Part shown: piece by piece, positions 23,609-42,817 of the stretch
How the letters are laid out: every line of letters starts with the position of its first letter
Numbering within the stretch: position 1 is the first letter of the stretch
Assembly: GCA_016869515.1 (NCBI GenBank)
Contig: VGDZ01000021.1
Location: 1 to 44,798 of the forward strand
From: Alphaproteobacteria bacterium
GTDB taxonomy: Bacteria; Pseudomonadota; Alphaproteobacteria; VGDZ01
Direction: 5' to 3'
DNA length: 44,798 nucleotides
The notes under the pieces: generated by a model
Databases searched by the model: none
What the model was told of the DNA's origin: nothing
Seen by the model: only the letters and a program-made list of their open reading frames with translations
Made by a program: the position numbers and the translations under genes

Positions 23609-24361
23609 TCAGTGCCCCAGTATCTGGGCGAGGAAGGCACGCGTCCGCTCCTGCCGCGGAGCTTCGAAAAACGCCGAAGGCGGTGCGTCTTCGACGATCT
23701 CGCCGCCGTCCATGAACAGGATCCGGTCAGCGACCGCACGGGCGAAGCCCATCTCGTGGGTCACGACAATCATCGTGCGGCCCTCGCGCGCGATTTCGAT
23801 CATCGCGTCAAGGACCTCCCTGGTCATTTCGGGATCGAGGGCCGAGGTCGGCTCGTCGAAAAGGAGAATCTCGGGTTCCATGGCGAGCGCGCGGGCGATC
23901 GCGACACGCTGCTGCTGCCCCCCGGACAATTGCCCGGGATACTTGTCCGCCTGATCGAGAACATGCACGCGCGCGAGATAGCGCATAGCGCGCGCTTCGG
24001 CCTCGCCCCGCGAGAGGCCGAGCGCCGATTCCGGCGCGAAGGCCGCATTGCCGAGCGCCGTCAGATGCGGAAACAGGTTGAGGCTTTGGAAGACCATCGC
24101 CGTCTTGCGCCGCACGGCGCGGATGGCGCGCACGTCGCCGTCCAGATCGATGCCATCGACCGTAAGACGGCCTGAATCGATCGCTTCGAGCCGGTTGATG
24201 CAGCGGACCAGCGTCGACTTGCCCGACCCGGATGGCCCGCATATCACGATGCGCTCGCCCCGCCCGACGGACAGCGAGACGCCGTTCAAGGCGCGAAACC
24301 GGCCGAACGTCTTGTGGACGCCGTCGAAGGTCACGATGGGATTTGTGCCGGGAGTCGCCAT
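23609..24361 (-). CDS. aapP: Amino acid ABC transporter ATP-binding protein
   Basis: This 250-residue ATPase of the polar amino acid uptake class has Walker A GPSGSGKST (42-50), Q-loop FQSLNLFPHLT, signature LSGGQQQR, Walker B ILLFDEPTSALD and the switch histidine in VTHEMGFA. It matches AapP/GlnQ in length and motif wording. The start shares its A with the permease stop (TGATG). It would energise the two permeases encoded just upstream for import of an L-amino acid, plausibly a beta-hydroxy amino acid given the downstream aldolase. Confidence 0.94.
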   Translation of the reverse strand: MATPGTNPIVTFDGVHKTFGRFRALNGVSLSVGRGERIVICGPSGSGKSTLVRCINRLEAIDSGRLTVDGIDLDGDVRAIRAVRRKTAMVFQSLNLFPHLTALGNAAFAPESALGLSRGEAEARAMRYLARVHVLDQADKYPGQLSGGQQQRVAIARALAMEPEILLFDEPTSALDPEMTREVLDAMIEIAREGRTMIVVTHEMGFARAVADRILFMDGGEIVEDAPPSAFFEAPRQERTRAFLAQILGH

Positions 24362-25446
24362 CAATAGTTCCGTCCGGTCTTCATCTCGGTCTCGAGCTTC
24401 TGGCTGTATTGCGAAAGCGAGAAACAGAACAGAAAGTACAGAGCAGCGACGAAGAGATAAGCCTCGACGTAGAACCGCGTCCAGCGCGGATCCTCCAGCG
24501 CGGCCATCGTTCCGCCAAGCAAGTCCAACAGGCCGATGATCACCAGTACCGACGTATTCTTGAAGGCGCGGATCACGTCGTTCACAACGGCAGGAATCGC
24601 GATGCGCAGCGCCTGAGGCAGCACGATCTTGAGTGTGCGCTCCCAATAGCTCACGCCGAGGCTGTCGGCCGCCTCGTATTGGCTGTGGGGAACCGCCTGA
24701 AGACCGCCGCGAACCGACTCGGCCGTGTACGCGGCGAAGAAGATCAGCATCCCAACTTGGGCGCGCAGCAACTTGTCGAAATTCACCCCCGCCGGCATGA
24801 ACAGCGGGAACAGAAGCGCGGCCACGAAGAGGATATTCACTAGCGGTACGCCACGCACGGTCTCGATGAACCCGATCGACAGCGCGCGGACGACGGGCAG
24901 CCTGGATTGCCGGCCGAGCGCGAGCAGCACCGCAAGCGGAAATCCGCCGAGGACGGTGCCAAGGAATATCGCGAGCGTCAGCGGCAGCCCGCCCCAGAGG
25001 GACGTCGGCACGCGAGCGAGACCCGCGAAGCCGCCGAACTGAAGAACCATTGCGGCCGACAATCCCACGCCCCAGGCGATCAACAGCGCGCCCGACCACA
25101 GCCGGCGGACCGTCGACACGCCGACCAGCGTCAGGACGATCGCCATCATCGCGTAGCCGCGCCAATGCTGATCGAACGGGTATGTGCCGAACAACATCAC
25201 CCGATATTTTTCGCCGATCACCGCCCAGCAGGCGCCTCCGGCGGTCCGGCACACGGCCGGATCGGCCGTTCGCCAAACGCTATCGACGAGCGCCCAGCGC
25301 ACGAGGTCAGGCAAGGTCGCGGCGAGCGCCGCGAGGAGCGCCAGCGACATGAGCGACGACGGGATCGAACCGAAAAAATTCGCCCGGAGCCAAGCGAGGG
25401 GCCTCGCCGATCCGGCCGGGCGGATGGCCGCGTCGGTCGGTCCCAT
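24361..25446 (-). CDS. aapM: Amino acid ABC transporter permease, AapM type
   Basis: This 361-residue membrane protein has an N-terminal helix, a periplasmic segment containing CRTAGGACW (two cysteines, possibly paired), and a C-terminal permease core with the His/Glu/Gln transporter pattern (GFIETVRGVPLVNILFV and the coupling loop EAADSLGVSYWERTLKIVLP). The long N-terminal extension is the mark of AapM against shorter HisM/GlnP permeases. It starts 2 bases after the AapQ stop, in the fixed order AapJ-Q-M-P. Confidence 0.92.
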   Translation of the reverse strand: MGPTDAAIRPAGSARPLAWLRANFFGSIPSSLMSLALLAALAATLPDLVRWALVDSVWRTADPAVCRTAGGACWAVIGEKYRVMLFGTYPFDQHWRGYAMMAIVLTLVGVSTVRRLWSGALLIAWGVGLSAAMVLQFGGFAGLARVPTSLWGGLPLTLAIFLGTVLGGFPLAVLLALGRQSRLPVVRALSIGFIETVRGVPLVNILFVAALLFPLFMPAGVNFDKLLRAQVGMLIFFAAYTAESVRGGLQAVPHSQYEAADSLGVSYWERTLKIVLPQALRIAIPAVVNDVIRAFKNTSVLVIIGLLDLLGGTMAALEDPRWTRFYVEAYLFVAALYFLFCFSLSQYSQKLETEMKTGRNY

Positions 25447-25448
25447 CC

Positions 25449-26651
25449 TTAACGCTCCTTGATCGCGACGAGGCGATTGTAGAGGTTCATCGCCGCCGCG
25501 ATCGAAAAGCTGATGGCCAAATACACCAGCGACATCAGCAATAGGGCTTCGACGACATGCCCGGTCTGATTGAGGGTCGTGTTCGACACATTGACTAGGT
25601 CGGGATAGCCGATGGCGACCGCAAGCGAGCTACTCTTGGCCAGGCTCACATACTGGCCGGCGGCCGGCGGAACCATCACCCGCAGCGCCTGGGGAATTAC
25701 GACGAGGCGATAAATCTGCGCCTGGCGCAGGCCCAGCGAGCGCGCCGCGTCGACCTGTCCGCGATGCACCGCTTCGATGCCGCCGCGAACGATCTCGGCG
25801 ATGAAGGCGGCGGTGTAGAGCGAGAGTCCGAGGAACAGGGCCACGAATTCCGGCGACAACGTGGCGCCGCCGACGAAGTTCAGTCCGCGCAGCGCGGGGC
25901 GGTCGAGGGCGGTCGGCGCGCCGGCCAGCGCCCAGGCCAACACCGGCAAGCCCAGCAGAAGGGCCGCACACGCCCCGCCGATCGGCGGGGCGGTTCCGAT
26001 GCGCGCCCGGCGCGCGCGCGCCCAGCCGCGCAGGAGGTACGCCGCCAGGATCGCGACGAGGAAGGCAGCTCCGGCCCAGGCGTAGGCCGCGTCGGCGATC
26101 GGCCACGGGAGTTTGATGCCGCGGTTACTGACGAACACGTCGCCGCCGGGCGAAATCGCCTGGCGCGGCCCCGGCAGCCGCGTCATCACCGCATACCAGA
26201 ACACGATCTGGAGAAGCTGCGGCGTGTTGCGGAACAGCTCAACATAGGCTGCGGAGAGTTTCGCGGCACCGAGATTGCGCGACAGCCGCATGATGCCCAG
26301 GACGAACCCAAGCACTGTCGCGGCGACGATCGCCAGCAGCGACACCCGCAAGGTGTTGACGAGCCCTACCAGGAACGCGCGCAAGTAACTGTCGGACGGC
26401 TCGAAGCCCAGGAACAGGCTTTCGCCGATCCCGAACCCCGCCTCCTGCGAGAGATACCCGAAGCCCGAGGCGATCCCGCGCACGCGCAGCGCCTCGGCCG
26501 CGTTCGAAACGAAGAACGCGATCGCTCCCACCACGACGGCGAGCGCAAGCCCTTGCAAGACGACGTCGCGGACCCGCGTATCGTGGACGACCCACGCCAA
26601 TCCGGCCCGCGGCGAAGGGCCGGTTTGCGATCCGCGATCGGGTAAGCTCAC
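25449..26651 (-). CDS. aapQ: Amino acid ABC transporter permease, AapQ type
   Basis: This 400-residue permease starts at GTG 26651 behind GAGGCGGA. An N-terminal hydrophobic helix follows a short leader (VVLQGLALAVVVGAIAFFV). The protein has the AapQ-type first periplasmic segment, the block YVELFRNTPQLLQIVFWYAV and the coupling loop DAARSLGLRQAQIYRLVVIP. About eight helices are expected. It pairs with AapM. The gap to the binding-protein stop is 20 bases. Confidence 0.92.
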   Translation of the reverse strand: MSLPDRGSQTGPSPRAGLAWVVHDTRVRDVVLQGLALAVVVGAIAFFVSNAAEALRVRGIASGFGYLSQEAGFGIGESLFLGFEPSDSYLRAFLVGLVNTLRVSLLAIVAATVLGFVLGIMRLSRNLGAAKLSAAYVELFRNTPQLLQIVFWYAVMTRLPGPRQAISPGGDVFVSNRGIKLPWPIADAAYAWAGAAFLVAILAAYLLRGWARARRARIGTAPPIGGACAALLLGLPVLAWALAGAPTALDRPALRGLNFVGGATLSPEFVALFLGLSLYTAAFIAEIVRGGIEAVHRGQVDAARSLGLRQAQIYRLVVIPQALRVMVPPAAGQYVSLAKSSSLAVAIGYPDLVNVSNTTLNQTGHVVEALLLMSLVYLAISFSIAAAMNLYNRLVAIKER

Positions 26652-26671
26652 TCCGCCTCGCCTGGTCCCGC

Positions 26672-27706
26672 TCAATTGAACGGCGGCGAATACAGCAATC
26701 CGCCGCGCGTCCACAATTCGTTGAGCCCGCGCGGCAGCTTGAAGGCCGAGTTCGGGCCGAAGCTCCTGTCGTAGACCTCGCCGTAGTTTCCGACTTGCTT
26801 GATTGCGCGATAGGCCCATTGCTCGTCGAGCCCGAGCGCGCGGCCCAAGCCGGGCGTGACGCCCAACAGCCGGCGGATGTTCTGATCCTCGGATCGGAGC
26901 ATCTCGTCGACGTTTCGCGACGTTACGCCGGCCTCCTCGGCTTCAATCAACGCGTAGACGACCCAGGTCACGATGTCCTTCCATTGATTGTCGCCGTGAC
27001 GCACCACGGGACCCATCGGGTCCTTGGCGGCGACTTCGGGCAGGAAAACGTAGTCGTCCGGGTTGGCGGCGAAGATCGAGCGCTGCGAGGCGAGGCCGGT
27101 CGTCGTCTGCACGTTGACGTCGCAACGGCCGGAGAAAAAGGCTTGGGACAGTTCCTGCGGCTTGTCGATGACCACGGCGCGGTACGTCATCCGGTTCTGG
27201 CGGAAGACGTCGGCGACGACTTTCTCGGAGGTCGAGCCCGGCGCCACGCAGACCGTGGCACCATTGAGATCCTTGATGCTCTTAGCGCCCAACGAGCGCG
27301 CCACCATGAAGCCTTGGGCGTCGTAGAACGTGATCGGGCCGAAATCGAAGCCCATGCTCGTGTCGCGCAACAGCGTTTTGGTGACGTTGTTGGTCAGGAG
27401 ATCGACCTCGCCGGTCTGCAACGAAGGGAAGCGGCTCTGCGCGGTCGTCCGGACGAACTGCGTTTTGGCTGCGTCGCCGAGCACGGCGGCCGCGACGGCG
27501 CGGCAGGTGTCGATGTCGATACCGTTCCAGCGGCCCTGGCTATCGATGGCCGAGAAGCCGGCCCGTCCGCCATGGATGCCGCAGACGAGCGCGCCACGCT
27601 TCTTCACAGTCTCCATCGTCGCCGACTGGGCGTGGGATGGCGTGGCGTTGATGGCACCCATCAGCACAGCGGCCGAAAGGGCGATGGTCGAAAGTTTTGG
27701 GATCAT
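26672..27706 (-). CDS. aapJ: Amino acid ABC transporter substrate-binding protein, AapJ type
   Basis: This 344-residue periplasmic binding protein has a Sec signal (residues 1-26, cleavage near SHAQS). Typical blocks are LVCGIHGGRAGFSAIDSQG, GIDIDTCRAVAAAVLGD, FPSLQTGEVDLLTNNVT and a long C-terminal tail ending GGLLYSPPFN. All fit AapJ of the general L-amino acid system. A near-perfect AGGAGG ribosome-binding site lies 8 bases before ATG 27706 and overlaps the end of the regulator gene, implying strong translation. Ligand cannot be read from sequence. Confidence 0.93.
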   Translation of the reverse strand: MIPKLSTIALSAAVLMGAINATPSHAQSATMETVKKRGALVCGIHGGRAGFSAIDSQGRWNGIDIDTCRAVAAAVLGDAAKTQFVRTTAQSRFPSLQTGEVDLLTNNVTKTLLRDTSMGFDFGPITFYDAQGFMVARSLGAKSIKDLNGATVCVAPGSTSEKVVADVFRQNRMTYRAVVIDKPQELSQAFFSGRCDVNVQTTTGLASQRSIFAANPDDYVFLPEVAAKDPMGPVVRHGDNQWKDIVTWVVYALIEAEEAGVTSRNVDEMLRSEDQNIRRLLGVTPGLGRALGLDEQWAYRAIKQVGNYGEVYDRSFGPNSAFKLPRGLNELWTRGGLLYSPPFN

Positions 27707-27711
27707 TTCGA

Positions 27712-28419
27712 CTACCTCCTCGTTTGTTGCGTTGGACGGGAAAAGGTGGCGGCACCCGCGACCGCCGAAAGGTCGAGCCGGGCCCGCGCCTCGAGAACGC
27801 CGGCAAGATGCTCGACGATGCGCATTTGGGCGAGTGGCGCGTCGCCGTTTTCGATGGCGTCGAGAATCGCGAGATGCTCGATCAGGCTGCGCCGCGCCTG
27901 ACCGGCGCCCAGCGGGCGGCCCTCGCGCGCGGCCATGATCGGCAGCCGCAGCGCGTCGTAAGTCTGGAGCATGCGCTTGTTGCCCGTCGCCGCGACGATG
28001 GCGGAGTGGAAGTCCCAGCCCAGCCGATGCATCGCCGCGATCGAGCGCGCGTCGCTCTGTCCGAGATATCCCGCAAGACGCTTTCGAAATCCGAGGAGTT
28101 CCGGCGGCGCGCCGCGCTGGGCGACCAGCGACGCCGCCATGCTCTCGATGGCGAGCCGCACCTCGTAGATCTCGCGTACCTCGTCGAGCGAGGGCTGACG
28201 AAGGAACGTGCCGCGCATCGGCACGACGTCGAGCACACCTTCGCGGGCCAGACTCTTCAAAGCTTCGCGGACCGGCGTACGGCCGAAGCCGAGCCTATCC
28301 GCCATCGACCGCTCCGAAATCGGCGCGGCGGGATTGATCGCGCCGTCGGCGATCAGCCGGCGAATGCGCGCATAGGCCTCGTCGCGGTCGCTTCCGTCGA
28401 TCTGGCTCATCGTTGGCAT
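27712..28419 (-). CDS. GntR-family transcriptional regulator, FCD (FadR-like) type
   Basis: This protein is about 235 residues long. The N-terminal winged helix contains ISERSMADRLGFGRTPVREA followed by LAREGVLDVVPMRGTFL. The C-terminal FCD ligand-binding domain keeps the metal-site pattern: D and H in HRLGWDFHSAIV, H in SLIEHLAIL and H in MRIVEHLAG. An organic-acid or amino-acid effector is therefore likely. It is the first gene of the Aap/threonine aldolase operon (5 bases before aapJ) and presumably controls it. Start is uncertain between ATG 28419 and ATG 28410; neither has a strong ribosome-binding site. A long palindromic repeat lies 50 bases upstream. Confidence 0.9.
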   Translation of the reverse strand: MPTMSQIDGSDRDEAYARIRRLIADGAINPAAPISERSMADRLGFGRTPVREALKSLAREGVLDVVPMRGTFLRQPSLDEVREIYEVRLAIESMAASLVAQRGAPPELLGFRKRLAGYLGQSDARSIAAMHRLGWDFHSAIVAATGNKRMLQTYDALRLPIMAAREGRPLGAGQARRSLIEHLAILDAIENGDAPLAQMRIVEHLAGVLEARARLDLSAVAGAATFSRPTQQTRR

Positions 28420-28468
28420 GCCAGCACGGCGGGGCGGCCGAGTCAATCTACCGGCCGCGGCGAGGCAA

Positions 28469-28575
28469 CCCCTAGACCGCGATCGGTTCATAGGGAATCG
28501 CGGTCCAGAGCAGGATACGAGGGCATGATCGCTCTGTCTTGAACTCTATGGTTCAAGACAGATTGATCATGCCCT
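28469..28575. repeat. Long palindromic repeat, copy 3 (compound, inverted relative to copy 2)
   Basis: This is the reverse-complement arrangement of copy 2: a hairpin bounded by CTAGACCGCGATCGGTTC and GAATCGCGGTCC (28471-28506), then the AGGGCATGATC...GATCATGCCCT hairpin (about 28519-28575) around the loop TCTATG. It lacks the extra inner arm found in copy 2. The 305-base gap between the GntR gene and tRNA-Arg consists of this repeat plus about 150 bases (28576-28724) in which I see nothing recognisable. Confidence 0.85.
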
Positions 28576-30513: not shown

Positions 30514-31347
30514 TCATCCGATGCCCTCGCCCCGTGCCGCCCGGCCGGGGTAAGGCAGCCAATTGTCCTCCCGATAATGCGCCTGTTCGTCGACCAGGTG
30601 AAGGGCATAGGCAAGGCGCCGCCGGTTCGAGACATTGGTCGGGCTCATATGCGGCAGGTGCCCGTGCAGCGCGATCAGCGTGCCGCGGGGCGCTTCGAGT
30701 TCGATCGCCGCCGTGTCTGGCCATGGCCGGTCGCTCGTCTCTTCCATCGTCAACCGATCGCCAGCGCGCCGAAAGCGACGCCGCAGCGGGCCGCGATGCG
30801 CGCCGGGAATTGCACGCATGCAGCCATTGCTGCGATCGGCGTCCTCCAGCGCCAACCACAGCCCGATCACGCTCGACGGCTCGGTCGAGAGAAAGGTCGC
30901 GTCCTGATGCCAGTCGACTTCGCCGCCGATGCGCGGACCCTTGACGATGACCATGGACTGGATCGCCAGGGGTCTCGCCAGTCCCAGCGCCGCGGCATAG
31001 CGCATCCATCGCGTCTCGGACGAAAACGCAGCGAACTCCGGATCCAGCAGGTGCAGCGCGTGTCCGATCTTGTTGACGTTTTGGCCGTCGATCTCGGCAA
31101 ACAGGCGGACCTTGTCGCCGGACTCCCGGAACCAGGCATCGTCGGCATGGGATTGGCGCTTGGTGTCGAATACGGCGCGCGGCCGGTCCAGCGTCTCGAT
31201 CAGCCGTTCGGCGCGCCGGACCAGCGCCTCGCACTCGGCAGCGCTGGCAAAACCCTCGACGATCAGAAAACCGTCGCGCGCAAAGGCCTCGCGCATGGCG
31301 GCACCGGGACGACCGTCGACGGGCGGCCGAAACCGGGCCGGAATCAT
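30514..31347 (-). CDS. Phytanoyl-CoA dioxygenase (PhyH) family Fe(II)/2-oxoglutarate oxygenase
   Basis: This 277-residue double-stranded beta-helix oxygenase has metal ligands H147 and D149 in VDWHQDATFL and H233 in LPHMSPTN, followed by NRRRLAYALH carrying the 2-oxoglutarate-binding arginine. Family members hydroxylate diverse small molecules (acyl-CoAs, ectoine, natural products); substrate cannot be read. Its ATG overlaps the deoA stop by 4 bases and the phosphatase starts 14 bases after it, so it is firmly inside the nucleoside operon. By analogy with fungal Fe/2OG enzymes that oxidise deoxynucleosides or thymine, a nucleoside, base or sugar substrate is a reasonable hypothesis. I know of no assigned role for it in bacterial nucleoside salvage. 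Confidence 0.87.
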   Translation of the reverse strand: MIPARFRPPVDGRPGAAMREAFARDGFLIVEGFASAAECEALVRRAERLIETLDRPRAVFDTKRQSHADDAWFRESGDKVRLFAEIDGQNVNKIGHALHLLDPEFAAFSSETRWMRYAAALGLARPLAIQSMVIVKGPRIGGEVDWHQDATFLSTEPSSVIGLWLALEDADRSNGCMRAIPGAHRGPLRRRFRRAGDRLTMEETSDRPWPDTAAIELEAPRGTLIALHGHLPHMSPTNVSNRRRLAYALHLVDEQAHYREDNWLPYPGRAARGEGIG

Positions 31348-32670: not shown

Positions 32671-33465
32671 CTAGAGGCCGGCGACGAAAGTCTCGACCAG
32701 CCGCGCCACCGCGCTCGATCCGCGCCGGGCGGCGGCCAAGGTCTCGGCGTGGCTGAGCGTGCCCTTGCCGATGCCGGCGCCGAAATTGGTCACCAGCGAC
32801 AGCGCCGCGACCCGAAGCCCGCAATGGCGCGCCAGGATGGCCTCGGCCACGGTCGACATGCCGGCCAGATCGGCGCCCAGCAGGCGCGCCGCGCGTATCT
32901 CGGCCGGGGTCTCGAATTGCGGGCCGGGAAACCAGGCATAGATGCCATCGACTAGGCGGACCCCGGCTTGGCGCGCCGCCGCCTTGAGCCGCCGGCGCAG
33001 TTCGGGATCGTAGACCGCGGTTTGATCGACGAAACGCGCGTCGTCGCGTTCGCCGATCAAGGGCGAAAGGCCGGCCCAGGCGATGTGGTCGGTAACCATC
33101 GCGATCGCGCCCGGCTTGGCCCAGGGCCGCAAGCCGCCGGCGGAATTGGTCAACAGCAGGATTTCGCAGCCCAAGGCCCGCAGGGCGCGGACCGGCGCCT
33201 TCATGGCGTCGGCGCGGCCGCGCTCGTAATAATGTTCGCGCCCTTGCAGCACCGCGACCGGCTTGCCGGCGACCCGGCCCAGCACCAGCGTGCCGGAATG
33301 GCCCGAAACCGTGGGACGCGGGAATCCCGCCAGCTTGGAATAGGGGATGGCGATTGGATCGGCGATGCGCTCGACCAACCCGGCCAGCCCCGATCCCAGC
33401 ACGATGCCGATGCGCGGCGCGAAGCCCGGCGCGAGACGGCGGATTTGCGCGATGGCGGTTTTCAT
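32671..33465 (-). CDS. punA: Purine nucleoside phosphorylase (trimeric, PunA type)
   Basis: This 264-residue enzyme cleaves purine (deoxy)nucleosides with phosphate. The phosphate-binding and active-site motifs are GIVLGSGLAGL (20-30), SGHSGTLVLG (H56), QGREHYYERG (R76, H78), TNSAGGL, the base-binding Glu in FPGPQFETPAE and the late VTNFGAGI. It is of the high-molecular-weight purine family typical of bacteria with PunA/XapA. ATG 33465 overlaps the cdd stop by 4 bases. Confidence 0.94.
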   Translation of the reverse strand: MKTAIAQIRRLAPGFAPRIGIVLGSGLAGLVERIADPIAIPYSKLAGFPRPTVSGHSGTLVLGRVAGKPVAVLQGREHYYERGRADAMKAPVRALRALGCEILLLTNSAGGLRPWAKPGAIAMVTDHIAWAGLSPLIGERDDARFVDQTAVYDPELRRRLKAAARQAGVRLVDGIYAWFPGPQFETPAEIRAARLLGADLAGMSTVAEAILARHCGLRVAALSLVTNFGAGIGKGTLSHAETLAAARRGSSAVARLVETFVAGL

Positions 33466-33854
33466 TTCAGGTGATCCGGTCCGAAGGCCAACGGCAACAG
33501 CGCGCCCAGCGTCGTGCTGCGGCGTATCCCGCGCCCGTCGCACAGATGGACGGTCAAGCCGTCGTCGGCGAATTCGCGCAGGCGCTGGCGGCAGCCGCCG
33601 CAGGGGACGATGGTCTCGGCGCCCTCGCCCATGACCAGCGCCTCGGCGATGCGGCGTTCGCCGTCCAGCACCATGGCGGCGACGGCGCCGGTCTCGGCGC
33701 ATTGCCCTTGCGGATAGGCCGCGTTCTCGACATTGCAGCCGGCATAGATTTTGCCGTTGGCGCCGCGCAAGGCGGCCCCGACCTTGAACTTGGAATAGGG
33801 CGCATAGGCCCGCTCCATCGCCGCGCGCGCCGCCTGCAGCAAATCCTCGCTCAT
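33462..33854 (-). CDS. cdd: Cytidine deaminase
   Basis: This 130-residue homotetramer-type enzyme converts (deoxy)cytidine to (deoxy)uridine. Zinc ligands C52, C85 and C88 and catalytic E54 are visible in QCAETGA and PCGGCRQ. The N-terminal APYSKFKVGAAL and NVENAAYPQGQ are standard. It overlaps the upstream permease and the downstream punA by 4 bases each, so it is tightly coupled to import and phosphorolysis. Confidence 0.96.
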   Translation of the reverse strand: MSEDLLQAARAAMERAYAPYSKFKVGAALRGANGKIYAGCNVENAAYPQGQCAETGAVAAMVLDGERRIAEALVMGEGAETIVPCGGCRQRLREFADDGLTVHLCDGRGIRRSTTLGALLPLAFGPDHLK

Positions 33855-34765
33855 GTGCGGTCCTTGACATAGGGCACGCCGATGGCCCGGGGGGCCACCG
33901 CCTTGCCGATGAAGCCCGCCAGCAGGATCACGGTCAAGGCGTAGGGCAGCGCCTGGACAAGCTGCACCGGAACCTCGCCGATGCCGGCGATGGCGACGCC
34001 CTGCAGGCGGATCGCCACCGCATCCAGCAGCCCGAACATCAGGCAGGCACCGAGCGTCGGCCAGGGCCGCCACTTGCCGAAGATCATCGCCGCCAGCGCG
34101 ATATAGCCCTGGCCCGCGCTCATGTCGCGGCTGAAGCCGGCGTTCTGGGCGATCGCCAGATAGGTCCCGGCGATGCCGGTCAGCACGCCGCCGATCAGCA
34201 CCGCGCGATAGCGCAAGCCCTCGACCGAAATGCCGGCGGTGTCGACCGCCTGCGGGTTCTCGCCGACCGCGCGCAGCCGCAGCCCGAAGCGCGTTCCGCC
34301 CAGAACCCACGCCACCAGCGGCACCAGCCCAAGCGCGAAATAGACCATCAGGTTGTGGCCCAGCCACACCGGCATGAAGCGCGCCTCGGGCGGCAATTGC
34401 GGGGTCTGGCCGCCGCGCTGGAACCAGGCCATGCCGAGGACGATGGTCAGCCCCGAAACCAGGATGTTGATGGCGACGCCGCTGACCACCTGGTCGCCCT
34501 TGTGGGTGATGCAGGCGAAACCGTGCACCCCCGACAACATGACCGCGGTCAGGATTCCGGCCCCCAACCCCGCCCAGGCCGAACCCGACACCGCCGCCAT
34601 CGCCGCGGCTGAGAAAGCGGCGGCCAGCATCTTGCCTTCGAGGCCGATGTCGATCACGCCCGAACGCTCGGACACGAGGCCGGCCATGGCGCAGAGAATC
34701 AGTGGCGTCGCCACCCGCAAGGTCGCGCCCAGCGTCGACAGCAGCGGGACCAGCAATTCGTCCAT
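33851..34765 (-). CDS. Nucleoside ABC transporter permease (second)
   Basis: This 304-residue permease of the branched-chain/ribose-type family (YufQ/NupC-like) has about eight to nine helices. The blocks VSERSGVIDIGLEGKMLAAA near the N-terminus and SAGQGYIALAAMIFGKWRP in the C-terminal half are characteristic of permeases paired with BMP-type binding proteins. Its start shares an A with the first permease stop (TGATG), and its stop overlaps cdd. Confidence 0.92.
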   Translation of the reverse strand: MDELLVPLLSTLGATLRVATPLILCAMAGLVSERSGVIDIGLEGKMLAAAFSAAAMAAVSGSAWAGLGAGILTAVMLSGVHGFACITHKGDQVVSGVAINILVSGLTIVLGMAWFQRGGQTPQLPPEARFMPVWLGHNLMVYFALGLVPLVAWVLGGTRFGLRLRAVGENPQAVDTAGISVEGLRYRAVLIGGVLTGIAGTYLAIAQNAGFSRDMSAGQGYIALAAMIFGKWRPWPTLGACLMFGLLDAVAIRLQGVAIAGIGEVPVQLVQALPYALTVILLAGFIGKAVAPRAIGVPYVKDRT

Positions 34766-35865
34766 CAGCCGCTCCCGCGCGCGAACAGCCGCTCGAAACT
34801 CGGCCGCAGCCAATAGGCCAAGGCGCCGGAAAACAGGATCACCAGGCCCTGGATCACCACCACCATTTCGCGGGTGATGCTGGGAATTTCGAACGCCAGT
34901 TCGGCGCCGCCCTGCTGCAGCGCGCCAAACAGCAGCGCCGCCAGGCCGACGCCGATGGGATGGTTGCGGCCCATCAACGCCACGGCGATGCCGGTGAAGC
35001 CGGCGCCGGCGACGAAATTGAGGAACAGGCGATGATGCACGCCGAGAATCTCGTTCAGCCCAGCCAGGCCGGCCAGCGCCCCCGACAGGCACAAGCTGGC
35101 CACCACCACCCGCCGCGAGCGAATGCCGGCATAGACCGCCGCGCGCTCGGAATGGCCGACCGCGCGCAGCTCGTAACCCAGGGGCGTATGCCAGAGGAAC
35201 AGCCATACTCCAATTCCGGCGGCGACGGCGATGACGATCGACAGGTTGAGCGGGGTGTGGCCGACCTTGATCCCGACCATGCCCAACACCTCGTGCATCA
35301 TCGGCAGGCGCGCGGCCGGCGCGAATTCGCGGCTTTCGGCCGCCATCGAGCCGGGCGCGATCAACACGTTGACCATCAGATAGACTATTAGCGCCGCCGC
35401 CAGGAAATTGAACATGATGGTGGTGATGACGATATGGCTGCCGCGATAGGCCTGCAGCCAGGCCGGGATCGCGGCCCAGGCCGCGCCGAACAGCGCCGCC
35501 AGGGCAAGCCCGATCGGCGCCAGCAGCCAGCCGGGCAAGAGACGGTCCAGGGCCAGCATCGCCAGGCCGACGCCCAGGCCGCCGATATAGGCCTGGCCTT
35601 CGCCGCCGATGTTGAACAGGCCGGCATGGAAGGCGACCGCCACCGCCAATCCGGTGAAGACGTAGTTGGTGGCGTAGTAGAGCGTGTAGCCGATGGCTTC
35701 GCCTTGTCCCAGGGCGCCGGTCACCATGATGCGAATCGCCCGCCACGGGCTTTCGCCGATCGCCAGCACGATCAGCCCGGCCACACCCAGCGCCAGCGCG
35801 ACATTGCAGGCGGGAATCAGGCCGACATCGACCCACCGCGGCAGGCCGGCCGGACGCGCGCTCAT
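34765..35865 (-). CDS. Nucleoside ABC transporter permease (first)
   Basis: This 366-residue permease (YufP/NupB-like) has the paired-family blocks FHAGLFNIGGEGQAYIGGL and FLNFVAGAGFTGIAVALMG. The N-terminal helix is preceded by a short cytoplasmic leader (MSARPAGLPRW). ATG 35865 overlaps the ATPase stop (ATGA). It forms a heterodimer with the following permease. Confidence 0.92.
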   Translation of the reverse strand: MSARPAGLPRWVDVGLIPACNVALALGVAGLIVLAIGESPWRAIRIMVTGALGQGEAIGYTLYYATNYVFTGLAVAVAFHAGLFNIGGEGQAYIGGLGVGLAMLALDRLLPGWLLAPIGLALAALFGAAWAAIPAWLQAYRGSHIVITTIMFNFLAAALIVYLMVNVLIAPGSMAAESREFAPAARLPMMHEVLGMVGIKVGHTPLNLSIVIAVAAGIGVWLFLWHTPLGYELRAVGHSERAAVYAGIRSRRVVVASLCLSGALAGLAGLNEILGVHHRLFLNFVAGAGFTGIAVALMGRNHPIGVGLAALLFGALQQGGAELAFEIPSITREMVVVIQGLVILFSGALAYWLRPSFERLFARGSG

Positions 35866-37430
35866 GCCGCCTGCGCCGTGCCCTGGGCGCCGGCCATCAG
35901 CAGGCCGATCTTGCGTTCGTCGGCCTCGGCGCGATCGAGTTGGCCGGCGATCCGTCCGCCGCACATCACCAGGATTCGATCCGACAGCGAGAGGATTTCC
36001 TCCAGCTCGACCGAGACCAGCAGCACCGCGCAGCCGGCATCGCGCCGCTCGATCAGGCGGCGGTGCACGAATTCGATCGCGCCGATGTCGAGGCCCCGGG
36101 TCGGCTGCCCGGCCAGGAGGATCTTGGGTTCGCGATTGAGTTCCCGTCCCAGAATAAGCTTCTGCTGGTTGCCGCCCGAAAACCCCGCCGACCGCAGTTT
36201 GGGATCGCGCGGTCGGACGTCGTAGCGCTCCATCACGCCGGCGCAATGGCGGGACATGGCTGGCTGATCGCTGAACGGCCCGCGGACATAGGCTGGATCG
36301 CGCTGATAGCCCAGCACCGAGGATTCGGTGGCGGCGAAGGCCGTCACCAGCCCCAGCCGATGGCGGTCCTCGGGCACATGGGCCAGGCCGAGCGCCCGCA
36401 TCGCGGCGGGATCGGCCGGCGCTTCGGCCGTGACGACGCGGTCTCCGACCGTCAATCGTCCGGACTCGAGCGGCCGAATGCCCGACAAGACTTCCAGCAA
36501 TTCGGTCTGGCCGTTGCCGGACACGCCGGCGACGCCGACGATCTCGCCCGCGCGCAACTCGAACGAGACCTCGTCCAGCCGCACCACGCCGCGACCGTCG
36601 CGCACCCGCAGATGCTCGGCCTTGAGCAGCACGGGGCCCGGCCGGCAGGGCGCGATGGCGAAATCCAGCCGCACCTTGCGCCCGACCATCAGCTCGGCCA
36701 GTTCCTCGATCGTGGTCGCGGCGGTATCGCGTTCTGCCACGACCGCGCCAGCACGCATCACCACCACGCGGTCGGTCACTGCCATGATCTCGCGCAGCTT
36801 GTGGGTGATCAGGATCACCGTCGTGCCGCGCGCCTTGAGGGTCCTGAGGATGCGGAACAGCTGCTCGGTCTCGGCCGGCGTCAACACGCCAGTCGGCTCG
36901 TCGAGGATCAGGATTTCGGCGCCGCGATAGAGCGCCTTGAGAATCTCGACCCGCTGCTGGGCGCCGACCGGCAGATCGCCGACCAGGGCATCCGGATCGA
37001 CGCCCAGGCCGTAATCGCGCTCGAGGCGCTCGAGCGTGGCGCGGCCCGCGCGCAAACCGGCCGCCAGGACCGCGCCGCCTTCGGCCCCAAGCATGACGTT
37101 TTCCAGCACGGTGAAGGTGTCGACCAGCATGAAATGCTGGTGAACCATGCCGATGCCAAGGGCGATGGCGTCGCTGGAATTGCGGATGCTGACCGGCCGG
37201 CCGCGGATTCGGATCTCGCCGGCATCGGCGGCGTAGAAGCCGTAGAGGATGCTCATCAGCGTCGACTTGCCGGCGCCGTTCTCGCCGACGATGCCGGCGA
37301 TCGATCCGCGCGCGATGGTCAAGTCGACCGCGCGATTGGCGTGGACCGCGCCGAAACGCTTGTCGATGCCGATCAAGGAAACCGCCGGCGGGACGATCCC
37401 CGCCGGCGGTTCCGCCGCTAGTGCCGCCAC
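35862..37430 (-). CDS. Nucleoside/sugar-type ABC transporter ATPase with two nucleotide-binding domains
   Basis: This 522-residue double ATPase is of the RbsA/YufO class. Domain 1 has Walker A GENGAGKST (50-58), Q-loop VHQHFM, a degenerate signature LPVGAQQR and Walker B ILILDEPT. Domain 2 has a degenerate P-loop GVSGNGQTE, the signature FSGGNQQK and a Walker B with Ala-Gly (ILLAGQPTRGLD), lacking the usual acidic pair. This asymmetry is normal for the family. I used the GTG at 37430, 4 bases after the binding-protein stop; a TTG further in (at SLIGIDKRFG) is possible, because a strong hairpin occupies the first 20 codons. Confidence 0.93.
   Translation of the reverse strand: MAALAAEPPAGIVPPAVSLIGIDKRFGAVHANRAVDLTIARGSIAGIVGENGAGKSTLMSILYGFYAADAGEIRIRGRPVSIRNSSDAIALGIGMVHQHFMLVDTFTVLENVMLGAEGGAVLAAGLRAGRATLERLERDYGLGVDPDALVGDLPVGAQQRVEILKALYRGAEILILDEPTGVLTPAETEQLFRILRTLKARGTTVILITHKLREIMAVTDRVVVMRAGAVVAERDTAATTIEELAELMVGRKVRLDFAIAPCRPGPVLLKAEHLRVRDGRGVVRLDEVSFELRAGEIVGVAGVSGNGQTELLEVLSGIRPLESGRLTVGDRVVTAEAPADPAAMRALGLAHVPEDRHRLGLVTAFAATESSVLGYQRDPAYVRGPFSDQPAMSRHCAGVMERYDVRPRDPKLRSAGFSGGNQQKLILGRELNREPKILLAGQPTRGLDIGAIEFVHRRLIERRDAGCAVLLVSVELEEILSLSDRILVMCGGRIAGQLDRAEADERKIGLLMAGAQGTAQAA
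37377..37413 (-). promoter_or_regulatory. Strong hairpin at the ATPase start, after the binding-protein genes
   Basis: AACCGCCGGCGGG (37380-37392) and CCCGCCGGCGGTT (37399-37411) form a perfect 13-bp stem with a 6-base loop, extended by GGA/TCC across a one-base bulge. On the transcribed strand the stem is followed by TTTCCTTG. It lies just after the second binding-protein gene, at the 5' end of the ATPase frame. That is a position suited to reducing expression of the membrane components relative to the binding proteins. Confidence 0.65.
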
Positions 37431-37434
37431 CAGC

Positions 37435-38424
37435 TCAGTTCGGGCAGGCGTTGTTGCTCATGTAGTCGTGGACCGCGATCTTGCCGCCGACGATGTCGGC
37501 CTTGGTCTGGTCGATCCGCGTCTTCATCGCCGCCGTCACCAGCTTTTCGTTGTGCTGGTCCAGCGCCCAGTCGACGCCGCCTTCCTTGAGGCCCAGCACC
37601 CGAATGCCCGATTTCCAATTGCCGTCCTTGGCCGCCTTGAAGCTTTCGTAGGCCGCCAAGTCGACCCGCTTGACCATCGAGGTCAGCATGGTGCCGGGAT
37701 GGAGGTGGTTCTGGTTGGAATCGACGCCGATGGCCAGCCTGCCGCGATCCTTGGCCGCCTGATAGACGCCGACGCCGGTGCCGCCGGCGGCGGCATAGAT
37801 CACGTCGGCGCCGCGATCGAACTGGCCCTTGGCCAATTCGCCGCCGCGACCGGGATCGTTCCAGGCTGCCGGCGTGGTGCCGGTCATGTTGGCCAGCACC
37901 TCGACATTGGGGTTGACGAACTTGGCGCCTTTCTCGTAGCCGCACTGGAACCGCCGGATCAGCGGGATGTCCATGCCGCCGACGAAGCCGACCTTGCCGG
38001 TCTTCGACGCCAGCGCCGCCAGCGCGCCGACCAGGAACGAGCCTTCGTGCTCCTTGAACAGCACCGATTGGACGTTGGGCAGCTCGACCACGCTGTCGAT
38101 CAGGGTGAAGCGGATGTTGGGAAACTCGCCCGCCACCTTCTTGACCGCGTTGCCCTGGCTGAAGCCGACGCCAATGATCGGGTTCTGGCCGCGTTGGGCG
38201 AAGCGGCGATGGGCTTGCTCGAACTGGGTCTCGTTGGTGACCTCGAAATCGGCCACCGCGACGCCGCTGTCCCGGGTGAAGCGGGTGACGCCGTTGACCA
38301 CGCCCTCGTTGAACGACTTGTCGAACTTGCCGCCCATGTCGAACACCACCGCCGGCTTGAGCTCCTGGCCCTGGGCCGTGGCGGCGAAAGCGATCAGGCC
38401 GATCGCCAAACCGATGCTACGCAT
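37435..38424 (-). CDS. BMP-family (Med/PnrA-type) nucleoside-binding protein, copy 2
   Basis: This 329-residue periplasmic binding protein has a signal peptide ending near ATAQG and no lipobox cysteine. Family blocks include DMGGKFDKSFNE, GVGFSQGNAV, FKEHEGSFLVGALAAL, VGFVGGMDIPLIRRFQCGYE and AIGVDSNQNHLHPGTMLTSM. Two cysteines (in RFQCGYE and at the C-terminal NNACPN) are shared with the neighbour and could form a disulfide. Homologues bind purine or pyrimidine nucleosides. It is a diverged tandem duplicate of the preceding gene. Confidence 0.93.
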   Translation of the reverse strand: MRSIGLAIGLIAFAATAQGQELKPAVVFDMGGKFDKSFNEGVVNGVTRFTRDSGVAVADFEVTNETQFEQAHRRFAQRGQNPIIGVGFSQGNAVKKVAGEFPNIRFTLIDSVVELPNVQSVLFKEHEGSFLVGALAALASKTGKVGFVGGMDIPLIRRFQCGYEKGAKFVNPNVEVLANMTGTTPAAWNDPGRGGELAKGQFDRGADVIYAAAGGTGVGVYQAAKDRGRLAIGVDSNQNHLHPGTMLTSMVKRVDLAAYESFKAAKDGNWKSGIRVLGLKEGGVDWALDQHNEKLVTAAMKTRIDQTKADIVGGKIAVHDYMSNNACPN

Positions 38425-38461: not shown

Positions 38462-39448
38462 TCACGCGCCGCAGCGGTTGTTGCTCATGTAGTCGTGAAC
38501 CGTGATCTTGCCGGCGACGATGTCGGCCTTGGCCGCTTCGACCTTGGCCTTCATCTCGGCGCCGATCAGGCCGGCATTGTGCCGGTCCAGCGCCCAATCG
38601 ACCCCGCCTTCCTTGAGGCCCAGCACCCGCACGCCGGCCTTCCAGCTGCCGTCGCGGGCGGCCTTGAAGCTTTCGTAGGTCGCCAGATCGACCCGCTTCA
38701 GCATCGAGGTCAGCACGCTGCCGGGGTGAAGGTGGTTCTGATTGGAATCGACGCCGATCGAAAGCTTGCCGCGATCCTTGGCGGCCTGCAGCACGCCCAG
38801 ACCGGTGGTGCCGGCGGCGGCGTAGATCACGTCGGCGCCGCGGTCGATCTGGCCGCGGGCCAGCTCGGCGCCGCGCGCGGGATCGGTCCACGCCGCCGGC
38901 GTGCTGCCGGTCATGTTCTGGATCAGCTCGATGCGCGGATTGGCGTGGCGCGCGCCCTGTTCGTAGCCGCAGGCGAATTTGCGGATCAACGGGATGTCCA
39001 TGCCGCCGACGAAGCCGATCTTGCCGCTTTTCGCCGCCAGCGCCGCCGCCATGCCGACCAGGAACGAGCCTTCGTGCTCCTTGAACAGCACCGATTGCAC
39101 GTTGGGCAGGTCGACCACGCTGTCGATCACGGTGAAGCGCAGCGCCGGGAACTCCTTGGCCACGGTCGTCACCGCCGCGGTCTGAAGAAATCCCACGCCG
39201 ACGATCGGATTGGCCGGCAGGCGGGCGAAACGCCGATGCGCCTGCTCGAACTGGGCCTCGTTCGACACCACGAAGTCGCGGTAGTCGATGCCGGTCTCGG
39301 TCTTGAAGCGCTCGGCGCCGCGATAGGCCGCTTCGTTGAACGAGCCGTCGAACTTTTCGCCCATCGAATAGACCACCGCCGGCGCGATCTGGGCCGCGGC
39401 CGTTCCCGCCGCCAGCACCAATGCCATTGTCGCCATTGTCTGCCGCAT
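38462..39448 (-). CDS. BMP-family (Med/PnrA-type) nucleoside-binding protein, copy 1
   Basis: This 328-residue protein has a signal peptide (1-19, ending GTAAAQ). The core follows copy 2 closely: SMGEKFDGSFNE, LPNVQSVLFKEHEGSFLVG, IGFVGGMDIPLIRKFACGYE, IGVDSNQNHLHPGSVLTSM and HDYMSNNRCGA. Roughly two-thirds of positions look identical by eye. A GAGG ribosome-binding site precedes ATG 39448. Keeping two binding proteins for one permease suggests the system covers two ligand ranges, for instance purine and pyrimidine nucleosides. Confidence 0.93.
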   Translation of the reverse strand: MRQTMATMALVLAAGTAAAQIAPAVVYSMGEKFDGSFNEAAYRGAERFKTETGIDYRDFVVSNEAQFEQAHRRFARLPANPIVGVGFLQTAAVTTVAKEFPALRFTVIDSVVDLPNVQSVLFKEHEGSFLVGMAAALAAKSGKIGFVGGMDIPLIRKFACGYEQGARHANPRIELIQNMTGSTPAAWTDPARGAELARGQIDRGADVIYAAAGTTGLGVLQAAKDRGKLSIGVDSNQNHLHPGSVLTSMLKRVDLATYESFKAARDGSWKAGVRVLGLKEGGVDWALDRHNAGLIGAEMKAKVEAAKADIVAGKITVHDYMSNNRCGA

Positions 39449-39458
39449 CGCCGCCTCG

Positions 39459-41807
39459 CTATTCGCCGTAGGGAATCCAGACGTTCTTGACCTGCGTCGC
39501 CTGACGCAGGAACTCGGTGCCTTCGCCCTGGCGCGGATCGCGCCAGTCGCGGGCGCGGCCGTGATCGACCCAGCTGCGCTTGAGATCGGCGGCCGAAGCC
39601 GCTTCGACCCGCCGCGCCGCCTCGGCGTCGCCCGCCAGGCACCACACCGCATCGACGTCGCCGTGCGCGGCCAGGGTCTCGGCCAGGCCTCGGCGCTCGC
39701 CGGTGACGATCGCAAGCGCGCCCGGCGGCACGTCCGAAGTGTCGATCACCTGATAGAAATCGGTCGCCGGCAGGGGGCAACGCTGGGACGGCACCGCCAC
39801 CACCCGGTTGCCCATGGCCAGCGCCGGCGCCCAGATCGAAACGAAGGACAGCAGCGGCATGTCGTCGGGGCAGATCGCGCCGATCACGCCCAGCGCCTCG
39901 GGCATGGCCAGCGCCACGCCGCGCAATGGCGGATTGTGGACCTGGCCGTCGAACTTGTCCGCCCAGGCGCCCCAGGTGAACAGGCGGGCAAGGCTGGTCT
40001 CGACCTCGCGCTTGGCCTCGGCCTTGGAAGATCCCGCGACCTGGCAGAGGCGCCGCACGAATTCGTCCGCGCGCGCAGACAGGTTCTCCGCCAGGTAATA
40101 GAGCACCTGGGCGCGATTGTGCGCCGTGGCTTTGGTCCAGGCATCGGCCTTGCGCGCCGCTTCGACAGCGTTGCGAATGTCCTTGCGGTTGCCCTCGCCG
40201 ACCTCGCCGCCCGGCACAAGACGGCTATAGCCCGAATCCGGCCGCGCCTGCTTGCCGCCGACATGCAGCTTGGCGGTGCGGTCGATCGCCGCCGGCGGCG
40301 CCTTCAACCGCAGCGCCCTGGGCTTGGGCGGCGCATAGGCCGGCAGATCGGGCGCGAGATATTCGTACATGCCCTCGCGACCGCCCTCGCGGCCGAACCC
40401 GGATTCGCGATAGCCGCCGAATCCGCAGGCCGCATCGAACTGATTGGCGCAGTTGATCCAGACCGTGCCGGCCTTGAGCTTGGGCGCCACGTCCAGCGCC
40501 AAATTGACGTTCTCGGTCCAAACGCAGGCCGCCAGCCCGTAGCGGCTGTTGTTGGCCAGGGTCACCGCCTCCTCGGGCGTGCGGAAGGTCATCGCCGCCA
40601 GCACCGGGCCGAAAATCTCGACCTGGGCGACTTCGGCCGCCGGCGACACGCCGGTCAGCAGCGTCGGCGGGTAATAGCAGCCGGTTCCGGGCGGCGGCGT
40701 CTCGGACCGCCATAGCGTGGCGCCTTCGGCCACGCCGCGTTCGACCAAAGACTCGATACGCTGGCGCTGGCGCGGCGAGACCACCGCGCCGATGTCGGTG
40801 CATTTGTCGAGCGGATCGCCCATGCGCAGCGTATCCATCCGCGTCTTGAGCTTGACGTAGAGCCGCTCCGCCGTGCCCTCGTGCACCAGCAGCCGCGATC
40901 CGGCGCAGCACACTTGGCCCTGGTTGAACCAGATCGAGTCGACCGCGCCTTCGACCGCGGCGTCCAGATCGGCGTCGTCGAAGACGATGAAGGGCGACTT
41001 GCCGCCCAGTTCCAGCGTCAGCTTCTTGCCGCTGCCGGCGGTGGCGGCGCGGATCGAACGCCCGACCTCGGTCGAGCCGGTGAAGGCGATCTTGTCGATG
41101 CCGGCATGGCGGACGATGGTCTCGCCGACCTCGCCCGCGCCGGTGACGATGTTGAGCGCGCCCGCCGGCAATCCGGCCTCGGCCGCCAATTCGGCGAACA
41201 GCAGCGCCGACAGGCTGGTGTCTTCGGCCGGCTTGAGCACCACGGTGTTGCCAGCGGCCAGCGCTGGCGCCACTTTCCACGCCAGCATCAGGAGCGGGAA
41301 GTTCCAGGGCACGATCTGCCCGACCACGCCCAGCGGGCGATGGCCGGGGAACTCGGCGTCGCGCAACTGCGCCCAACCGGCGTGATGGTAGAAATGCCGC
41401 GCCACCAGCGGAAGGTCGATGTCGCGGGTCTCGCGGATCGGCTTGCCGTTGTCGAGCGTCTCGACCACCGCCAGCAGCCGCGCGTGGCGCTGCACCATGC
41501 GCGCCAGCGCATACAGCACCCGTGCCCGACCGTGGCCGCCCAGCCGCGTCCAACCCGGCAGCGCCTTGCGCGCCGCCGTGACCGCGGCATCGACGTCGCC
41601 TTCGCCGGCAAGCGCGATCTGGGCCAGGGTCTTGCCGCTGGCCGGATTGACGGTGGCGAAGGATTTTCCGGTCGAGGGCTTGACCCATTTGCCGCCGATG
41701 AACAGCCGGAACTGCTGGTCGTGGCGGGCCAGCCAGGCTTCGGCCACGCCTGCGCTTTCCGGCGCCGGTCCGTAATCCATGGAATCGAGGATAGCGGCGA
41801 TGTTCAT
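39459..41807 (-). CDS. ALDH16-family aldehyde dehydrogenase (two ALDH modules)
   Basis: This 782-residue protein joins a complete N-terminal aldehyde dehydrogenase (about 1-500) to a second, partial ALDH-like module (about 510-782). Module 1 has N169 (VPWNFP), K192, E266 (LELGGKS) and the catalytic cysteine C300 (GQVCCAGSR). Module 2 keeps a cofactor-domain look (CPDDMPLLSFVSIWAPALAM) but lacks a catalytic Cys block. This layout and length match bacterial ALDH16 proteins. ATG 41807 overlaps the deoC stop by 4 bases, so oxidation of DeoC-derived acetaldehyde to acetate is the natural inference. Confidence 0.92.
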   Translation of the reverse strand: MNIAAILDSMDYGPAPESAGVAEAWLARHDQQFRLFIGGKWVKPSTGKSFATVNPASGKTLAQIALAGEGDVDAAVTAARKALPGWTRLGGHGRARVLYALARMVQRHARLLAVVETLDNGKPIRETRDIDLPLVARHFYHHAGWAQLRDAEFPGHRPLGVVGQIVPWNFPLLMLAWKVAPALAAGNTVVLKPAEDTSLSALLFAELAAEAGLPAGALNIVTGAGEVGETIVRHAGIDKIAFTGSTEVGRSIRAATAGSGKKLTLELGGKSPFIVFDDADLDAAVEGAVDSIWFNQGQVCCAGSRLLVHEGTAERLYVKLKTRMDTLRMGDPLDKCTDIGAVVSPRQRQRIESLVERGVAEGATLWRSETPPPGTGCYYPPTLLTGVSPAAEVAQVEIFGPVLAAMTFRTPEEAVTLANNSRYGLAACVWTENVNLALDVAPKLKAGTVWINCANQFDAACGFGGYRESGFGREGGREGMYEYLAPDLPAYAPPKPRALRLKAPPAAIDRTAKLHVGGKQARPDSGYSRLVPGGEVGEGNRKDIRNAVEAARKADAWTKATAHNRAQVLYYLAENLSARADEFVRRLCQVAGSSKAEAKREVETSLARLFTWGAWADKFDGQVHNPPLRGVALAMPEALGVIGAICPDDMPLLSFVSIWAPALAMGNRVVAVPSQRCPLPATDFYQVIDTSDVPPGALAIVTGERRGLAETLAAHGDVDAVWCLAGDAEAARRVEAASAADLKRSWVDHGRARDWRDPRQGEGTEFLRQATQVKNVWIPYGE

Positions 41808-42817
41808 GCCAGGGGATGACGATGCGCGGCCGAATAGCGGCCGGTGACATGGTGTTCGAGCTGGCGCTCGATGTCGCCCAGCAGGCTGGAAGCGCCGATG
41901 CGGAACAGTTCGGGCTCCAACCACGGCCGGCCGAGTTCCTCGCACATCAGGAACTGGTAGTTGAGCACGTCCTTGGCCGCGGAAATGCCGCCGGCCGGCT
42001 TGAAGCCGATGCGTTGGCCGGTGCGTTCGCGATAGTCGCGGATCATGCGCAGCATGGTCAGCGACACCGGCAATGTCGCGTTGACCGTTTCCTTGCCGGT
42101 CGAGGTCTTGATGAAGTCGGCGCCGGCCATCATGCACACCGCCGAGGCCCGGGCGACGTTGCGCAGTGTGCCGAGATCGCCGGTGGCGAGGATGGTCTTG
42201 AGATGGGCCGGCCCACAGGCGGCGCGGAAGGCACGCACCTCGTCATGAAGCGCGCGCCAATCGCCGACCAAGGCATGCCGCCGCGAAATGACGATGTCGA
42301 TCTCGGCCGCGCCCGCCGCGACCGAGGCTTCGATTTCCTTGATGCGCAGGCCGAGCGGGCTGAGACCGGCGGGAAAGCCGGTCGAGACCGCCGCCACCGG
42401 AATGCCGCTGCCGGCCAGCGCCTCGACCGCGGTCGGCACCATTTCGTGATAGACGCAGACCGCGCCGACCTGGATCTTGCGATCGCCGAGACCCATCGCA
42501 TCGAGCAGGTCGCGCCGCACCGGCTGGCGGGCCTTGGCGCAAAGCCGCCGTACCCGCTCCCAGGTGTCGTCGCCCGACAGCGTGGTCAGGTCGATGCACT
42601 GGATCGCCTTGACCAGCCAGGCCGCCTGCCAATCCTTCTTGACCGTGCGCCGGCCGGGAAGCGTGGCGACACGGCGTTCGACCGCGCTGCGGTTGACCTT
42701 GAGGCCGTCGACCCAATCGAGGTCCAGCGCCATACCGGGATTGCGGCCGTGGCCGGCAACCGCCGGGTGTCGCGCGATGTCGGAATCGTTGCTGGGAACC
42801 GGCTGCAGCTTGGCCAT
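41804..42817 (-). CDS. deoC: Deoxyribose-phosphate aldolase
   Basis: This 337-residue class I aldolase splits 2-deoxyribose-5-phosphate into glyceraldehyde-3-phosphate and acetaldehyde. The Schiff-base lysine is K237 in FIKTSTGKE, the second lysine K273 in GFKPAGGI, and D174 lies in AEIDIVI. It is longer than E. coli DeoC, with an N-terminal extension of about 60 residues as in the eukaryote-like subgroup. It is probably the first gene of the nucleoside operon, 33 bases after the meaB stop, so read-through from meaB is possible. Confidence 0.95.
   Translation of the reverse strand: MAKLQPVPSNDSDIARHPAVAGHGRNPGMALDLDWVDGLKVNRSAVERRVATLPGRRTVKKDWQAAWLVKAIQCIDLTTLSGDDTWERVRRLCAKARQPVRRDLLDAMGLGDRKIQVGAVCVYHEMVPTAVEALAGSGIPVAAVSTGFPAGLSPLGLRIKEIEASVAAGAAEIDIVISRRHALVGDWRALHDEVRAFRAACGPAHLKTILATGDLGTLRNVARASAVCMMAGADFIKTSTGKETVNATLPVSLTMLRMIRDYRERTGQRIGFKPAGGISAAKDVLNYQFLMCEELGRPWLEPELFRIGASSLLGDIERQLEHHVTGRYSAAHRHPLA

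Follow-up and report, generated by a model that had tools for sequence, protein, structure and literature searches.

A PHYHD1-type oxygenase in an alphaproteobacterial nucleoside operon, a predicted 2'-O-methyl-nucleoside demethylase

The window analysed here, the whole 44,798-nucleotide stretch of contig VGDZ01000021.1, contains on its minus strand a co-directional run of genes extending from 42817 to 29660 in the order deoC-ALDH-bmp-bmp-ABC-perm-perm-cdd-punA-deoA-phyH-nucleotidase (Table 1). A preliminary description had placed the oxygenase gene, phyH, within a nucleoside operon, and Pfam and NCBIfam assignments of its neighbours confirm this. Overlaps of 4 bp are found between deoC and the aldehyde dehydrogenase gene, the ABC ATPase and permease A genes, permease B and cdd, cdd and punA, and deoA and phyH; since five gene pairs overlap in this way, the set looks translationally coupled. 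The last of these overlaps, in which the deoA stop and the phyH start share ATGA at 31347-31344, agrees with the coupling to deoA proposed earlier. The nucleotidase gene, as also described, follows at once, its ATG at 30499 lying 14 bp beyond the phyH stop. Its product carries, as judged by eye, a likely N-terminal signal peptide, and scores 211.9 bits against TIGR01533, just under the cut-off of 216.05, the query copy being short of 5 N-terminal residues. Further along, past an opposite-strand DUF1499 gene, positions 23609-28491 hold a polar amino-acid ABC transporter and a GntR/FCD regulator gene that look unrelated to the nucleoside operon.

Table 1. Genes of the phyH-containing operon, in window coordinates.
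Feature	Position	Strand	Basis
Acid phosphatase / e(P4)-type 5'-nucleotidase, secreted-type, 279 aa	29660..30499	-	Pfam Acid_phosphat_B 138 bits
phyH, PHYHD1-type Fe(II)/2OG oxygenase, 277 aa, predicted 2'-O-methyl-nucleoside demethylase	30514..31347	-	Pfam, PDB sequence, fold and residue comparisons
deoA-type pyrimidine nucleoside phosphorylase, 439 aa	31344..32663	-	Pfam Glycos_transf_3, PYNP_C, Glycos_trans_3N
punA, purine nucleoside phosphorylase	32671..33465	-	PNP_UDP_1 182 bits
cdd, cytidine deaminase	33462..33854	-	dCMP_cyt_deam_1
ABC transporter permease B	33851..34765	-	BPD_transp_2
ABC transporter permease A	34765..35865	-	BPD_transp_2
ABC transporter ATPase, sugar/nucleoside type, two ATPase domains	35862..37430	-	NCBIfam
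BMP/PnrA-type substrate-binding protein 1	37435..38424	-	Bmp 214 bits
BMP/PnrA-type substrate-binding protein 2	38462..39448	-	Bmp 200 bits
Aldehyde dehydrogenase, two Aldedh domains	39459..41807	-	Aldedh 655 bits, 2 stretches
DeoC-type (deoxyribose-phosphate) aldolase	41804..42817	-	DeoC/LacD 73 bits

Profile searches of the source genome, which is 97% complete, gave no match to adenosine deaminase (PF00962) or to the phosphopentomutase deoB (TIGR01696), and none above cut-off to glutathione-dependent formaldehyde dehydrogenase (TIGR02818). Relatives carry the first two, add and deoB, within the phyH operon itself.

The PhyH protein matches a single Pfam family, PhyH (PF05721), with 135 bits and an E value of 6e-39 against a cut-off of 22. 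The iron triad H147-x-D149...H233 and the 2OG-binding R244 are present, and these residues are invariant in 116 of 116 PHYHD1-type rows of our alignment, bearing out the earlier view that the oxygenase is intact. By sequence the top solved relative is human PHYHD1 (PDB code 2opw), matched over nearly the full length with 166 bits (E 1.2e-47), the PDB relatives that come after it scoring no more than 50 bits. Structural comparison employed an AlphaFold2 model derived from a 25-row alignment (mean pLDDT 90.1, pTM 0.90): a fold search with this model returned two PHYHD1 entries as the best matches (1.4e-27 and 7.3e-27), the next, non-PHYHD1, entry standing at 6.9e-16. Human phytanoyl-CoA 2-hydroxylase, PHYH (2a1x), shares the PF05721 fold and the catalytic residues, but is a far weaker match both by sequence (40 bits, E 2.5e-9, versus 166 bits) and by fold (E 3.2e-15 versus 1.4e-27). 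When human PHYHD1 was used as query it scored 163 bits to the PhyH protein and 163-255 bits to the PHYHD1-type group, while of 40 PhyH-paralogue loci 38 gave 18-61 bits and 2 gave no match. By sequence and fold, the protein belongs with PHYHD1 and not with phytanoyl-CoA hydroxylase.

This placement brings with it a known reaction. The bacterial PhyH protein FJS was found by metagenomic selection, in an E. coli background unable to use 2'-O-methylcytidine, and 2OG-dependent 2'-O-demethylation of free nucleosides was reported for FJS, for PHYHD1 from animals and a fungus, and for homologues from plants, bacteria and a virus (Stonkus et al., December 2025; PMC12709175). In the same work formaldehyde release was demonstrated for FJS, 5'-phosphates were not substrates for FJS or human PHYHD1, and human PHYH was without demethylase activity. 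Zebrafish knockouts accumulate free 2'-O-methyl nucleosides, the pool of which PHYHD1 controls in that animal (PMC12709175). The preliminary description had cited fungal thymine and deoxynucleoside hydroxylases as its chemical precedent; in comparisons that covered Pfam families and solved structures we find no support for that precedent, the relevant one being 2'-O-demethylation by PHYHD1 and FJS (PMC12709175).

In docking of human PHYHD1, K102, H105, Q139 and W277 contact the ribose and F161 stacks on the base (PMC12709175). In the fold alignment human PHYHD1 (2opw, 3obz) is about 36% identical to the PhyH protein, and its Fe triad, 2OG arginine and all five of these pocket residues have identical counterparts there: K93, H96, Q130 and W263 at the predicted ribose contacts, and F152 at the stacking position. 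The four ribose contacts, all retained here, were called conserved in the tested non-bacterial enzymes (PMC12709175). Across the 116 PHYHD1-type rows, the PhyH protein included, the lysine and the glutamine occur in 116 each and the histidine and tryptophan in 115 each, with Phe or Tyr at the stacking position in 115. The 40 paralogues, whose rows were aligned against the profile for these counts, keep the iron and 2OG residues but show the lysine in 1, the histidine in 1, the glutamine in 10 and the tryptophan in 4, a contrast weakened, though not removed, by the K, H and W positions lying mostly outside the aligned stretch. FJS is, like our protein, a bacterial member of the PhyH family within the PHYHD1 clade of PMC12709175, and acts broadly on free 2'-O-methyl nucleosides; it differs, by description rather than by sequence, in that the bacterial demethylases are stated there to have Tyr at F161, where the PhyH protein has Phe.

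Other differences from the human enzyme are evident. The purine contact S154 is replaced by D145, at a position that varies across the family, and the protein is shorter both at the segment of human helix Q56-L71 and at a later insert. Q56-L71 is, in the human enzyme, an extra helix at the cavity mouth; as a possible counterpart the model offers short helices at 66-69 and 71-74, where its confidence is lower. The PhyH protein is also divergent, with 57% identity at best and a long branch, and is without an insert of about 12 residues found in most relatives; like the change at S154, both features count against its being a demethylase.

The source genome is the only one sampled from its order and comparisons therefore drew on the class and phylum. 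In the class, 38 of 385 genomes contain a match at E 1e-20 or better, and 37, the source genome included, do so at 8e-48 or better, after which there is a gap to 4e-21. PHYHD1-type copies thus defined occur once per carrier genome, in around 10% of the sampled class genomes (37/385). Thirty carrier genomes have in sum 280 PhyH-family places, so that the PHYHD1 type shares its family with many other members. A search of PLSDB plasmids yielded distant matches only, the best, at 40% identity, being from Azospirillum and lying beside methyltransferases and another dioxygenase rather than nucleoside genes. This locus, from an Azospirillum ramasamyi plasmid (L148:179-6813), combines the PhyH gene with two SAM methyltransferases, a TauD-type dioxygenase and a hypothetical protein of 1397-aa size, and looks like a biosynthetic cluster.

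An even class sample, from which the source locus was excluded, showed nucleoside genes within about 10 kb at 20 of 35 PHYHD1-type loci. All 20 have phyH adjacent to a nucleoside gene, on the same strand in 19. At the PhyH-paralogue loci, 38 from relatives' genomes and 2 from the source genome, the figure was 1 of 40, a lone IunH (Fisher p 6e-8, in a test that ignores shared descent). Linkage was seen at 74 of the 80 closest loci from named genomes, a set biased towards best matches, and clustering at 80% identity gave 53 clusters, 37 linked and 16 unlinked. The association of phyH with nucleoside genes is thus not a matter of chance: it is found repeatedly in the class, whereas other PhyH paralogues hardly show it. 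The preliminary description had allowed that close homologues might consistently lie apart from nucleoside genes, or that the protein might prove to be an acyl-CoA enzyme; its neighbours in relatives, and its PHYHD1-type sequence and fold, point the other way. The 15 unlinked loci of the 35 nevertheless count against the demethylase interpretation, and at 3 loci examined outside the class no nucleoside genes were found near the homologues.

The arrangements themselves vary. Besides deoA-phyH, with add and a nucleotidase gene behind in Reyranella-type loci, there is deoB-phyH(-add-upp), as in Stappia, Pseudovibrio and Dongia, and phyH is elsewhere placed first, before BMP, divergently from BMP, behind a permease gene or ahead of add. 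One locus (L139:9962-14438) has phyH-deoA-CNT, the last a nucleoside transporter of a different type, with an IunH-like gene behind. In another (L113:9956-13553) and some 30 similar loci (e.g. L055, L087, L104), a co-directional gene for an IunH-type nucleoside hydrolase comes after phyH; these loci come from AT-rich alphaproteobacterial genomes, mostly AG-series records, and opposite-strand Indigoidine_A (PsuG-like) and PfkB genes adjoin. Such loci are possibly islands for modified nucleosides, both 2'-O-methyl and pseudouridine. A quick tree, weakly supported at its deep forks, requires no fewer than 14 changes of arrangement, and 7 between the linked and unlinked states.

Taken together, the pocket, placement and context make it highly probable that phyH encodes a PHYHD1-type oxygenase removing the 2'-O-methyl group from free ribonucleosides, making these blocked RNA nucleosides usable in the operon. 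The activity of the protein, the flow through the operon and the part of the methyl group as a block to phosphorylases are what we infer here. The substrates would be 2'-O-methylated ribonucleosides, released in RNA turnover or taken from RNA in the environment. The exported nucleotidase would strip the 5'-phosphate outside the cytoplasm and the BMP-ABC transporter would import the nucleoside, which PhyH would then demethylate by oxidising the 2'-O-methyl group, yielding plain nucleoside, formaldehyde, succinate and CO2. Cdd, PunA and DeoA could deaminate and phosphorolyse the product, with DeoC and the aldehyde dehydrogenase taking the deoxyribose branch. The position of the nucleotidase ahead of PhyH in this scheme fits, because PHYHD1 enzymes accept nucleosides and not 5'-phosphates (PMC12709175). 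That the methyl group should block nucleoside phosphorylases is our expectation, in line with the failure of E. coli to use 2'-O-methylcytidine (PMC12709175). Of the roles suggested earlier, a route for modified nucleosides that the phosphorylases cannot use is thus the best-supported reading, while we found no sign of thymine or a free sugar as substrate.

The same chemistry might serve a different purpose, control of the free 2'-O-methyl nucleoside pool rather than uptake. The zebrafish enzyme has that function (PMC12709175) and many bacterial copies stand alone, yet the linked copies are accompanied by an importer, to which the present operon and the Reyranella-type loci add a nucleotidase that looks exported. 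Because of these companions uptake is indicated, and pool control as the purpose seems rather unlikely, although the two roles can hold together.

A different nucleoside position might alternatively be oxidised, either the 2' carbon of deoxynucleosides or a base methyl, with the product entering the same operon. The operon context would be identical, deoA and deoC also point to deoxynucleosides, and 2' oxidation of free nucleosides by a 2OG enzyme has a precedent in PDN2'H, the Neurospora nucleoside 2'-hydroxylase (cited in PMC12709175); deoxynucleosides are, furthermore, not listed in the substrate table of that paper. Against this, the ribose contacts and overall similarity match PHYHD1, whose demonstrated reaction is 2'-O-demethylation, and deoxynucleosides enter the pathway with no need of an oxygenase. 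In the AT-rich genomes, moreover, the partner is an IunH-family nucleoside hydrolase. Known members of the IunH family act on ribonucleosides. Oxidation at another position is accordingly improbable. A generic acyl-CoA or phytanoyl role was rejected on sequence, fold and context: that phyH is an ordinary hydroxylase of an acyl-CoA, amino acid or natural product, caught in the operon by accident, is suggested by the Pfam name and the many paralogues per genome, but is very hard to credit given the far weaker match to phytanoyl-CoA hydroxylase and a nucleoside association that recurs in several arrangements and that 39 of 40 paralogues lack.

The reaction and the enzyme family were already known. 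New here are two things, an operon context that recurs in several arrangements and a bacterial branch, operon-linked and recognisable by sequence, that has the animal-type pocket; human PHYHD1, by comparison, has a counterpart here that is encoded in a bacterial nucleoside operon. 2'-O-methylation is among the commonest RNA marks. Its breakdown was little understood before the demethylation by PHYHD1 and FJS was reported in late 2025 (PMC12709175), and FJS has no known operon context, since it was recovered from an insert of about 1200 bp. In the literature searched, no paper dealt with the operon context of PHYHD1-type genes, nor did we find gene neighbourhood discussed in the main text of PMC12709175. 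A bacterial cluster previously proposed for 2'-O-methyl nucleoside breakdown, that of the nucleoside hydrolase RK9NH and the aldolase RK9DPA (PMC6278475), resembles the present operon in including a deoxyribose-phosphate-aldolase homologue, but there the glycosidic bond is cleaved without demethylation and no oxygenase was reported.

The recurrent operon gives the host role of the bacterial enzymes a testable form, namely dephosphorylation, uptake, oxidative unblocking and phosphorolysis, and the label 'phytanoyl-CoA dioxygenase' can be corrected for the PHYHD1-type subfamily. More broadly, we lean towards the view that there are bacterial operons dedicated to the use of modified RNA nucleosides as food, in which the linked PHYHD1 branch would be a nutritional demethylase. 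On more than one occasion this branch would have been joined to a phosphorolytic (deoA/deoB/punA) or a hydrolytic (IunH) route and, where genomes are AT-rich, set beside PsuG and PfkB of the pseudouridine-degradation type; animal PHYHD1 would then be a relative of a bacterial salvage enzyme. One of the unlinked PHYHD1-type genes (L043:2596-4029) lies directly behind a same-strand aldehyde dehydrogenase gene, where a link through formaldehyde is possible.
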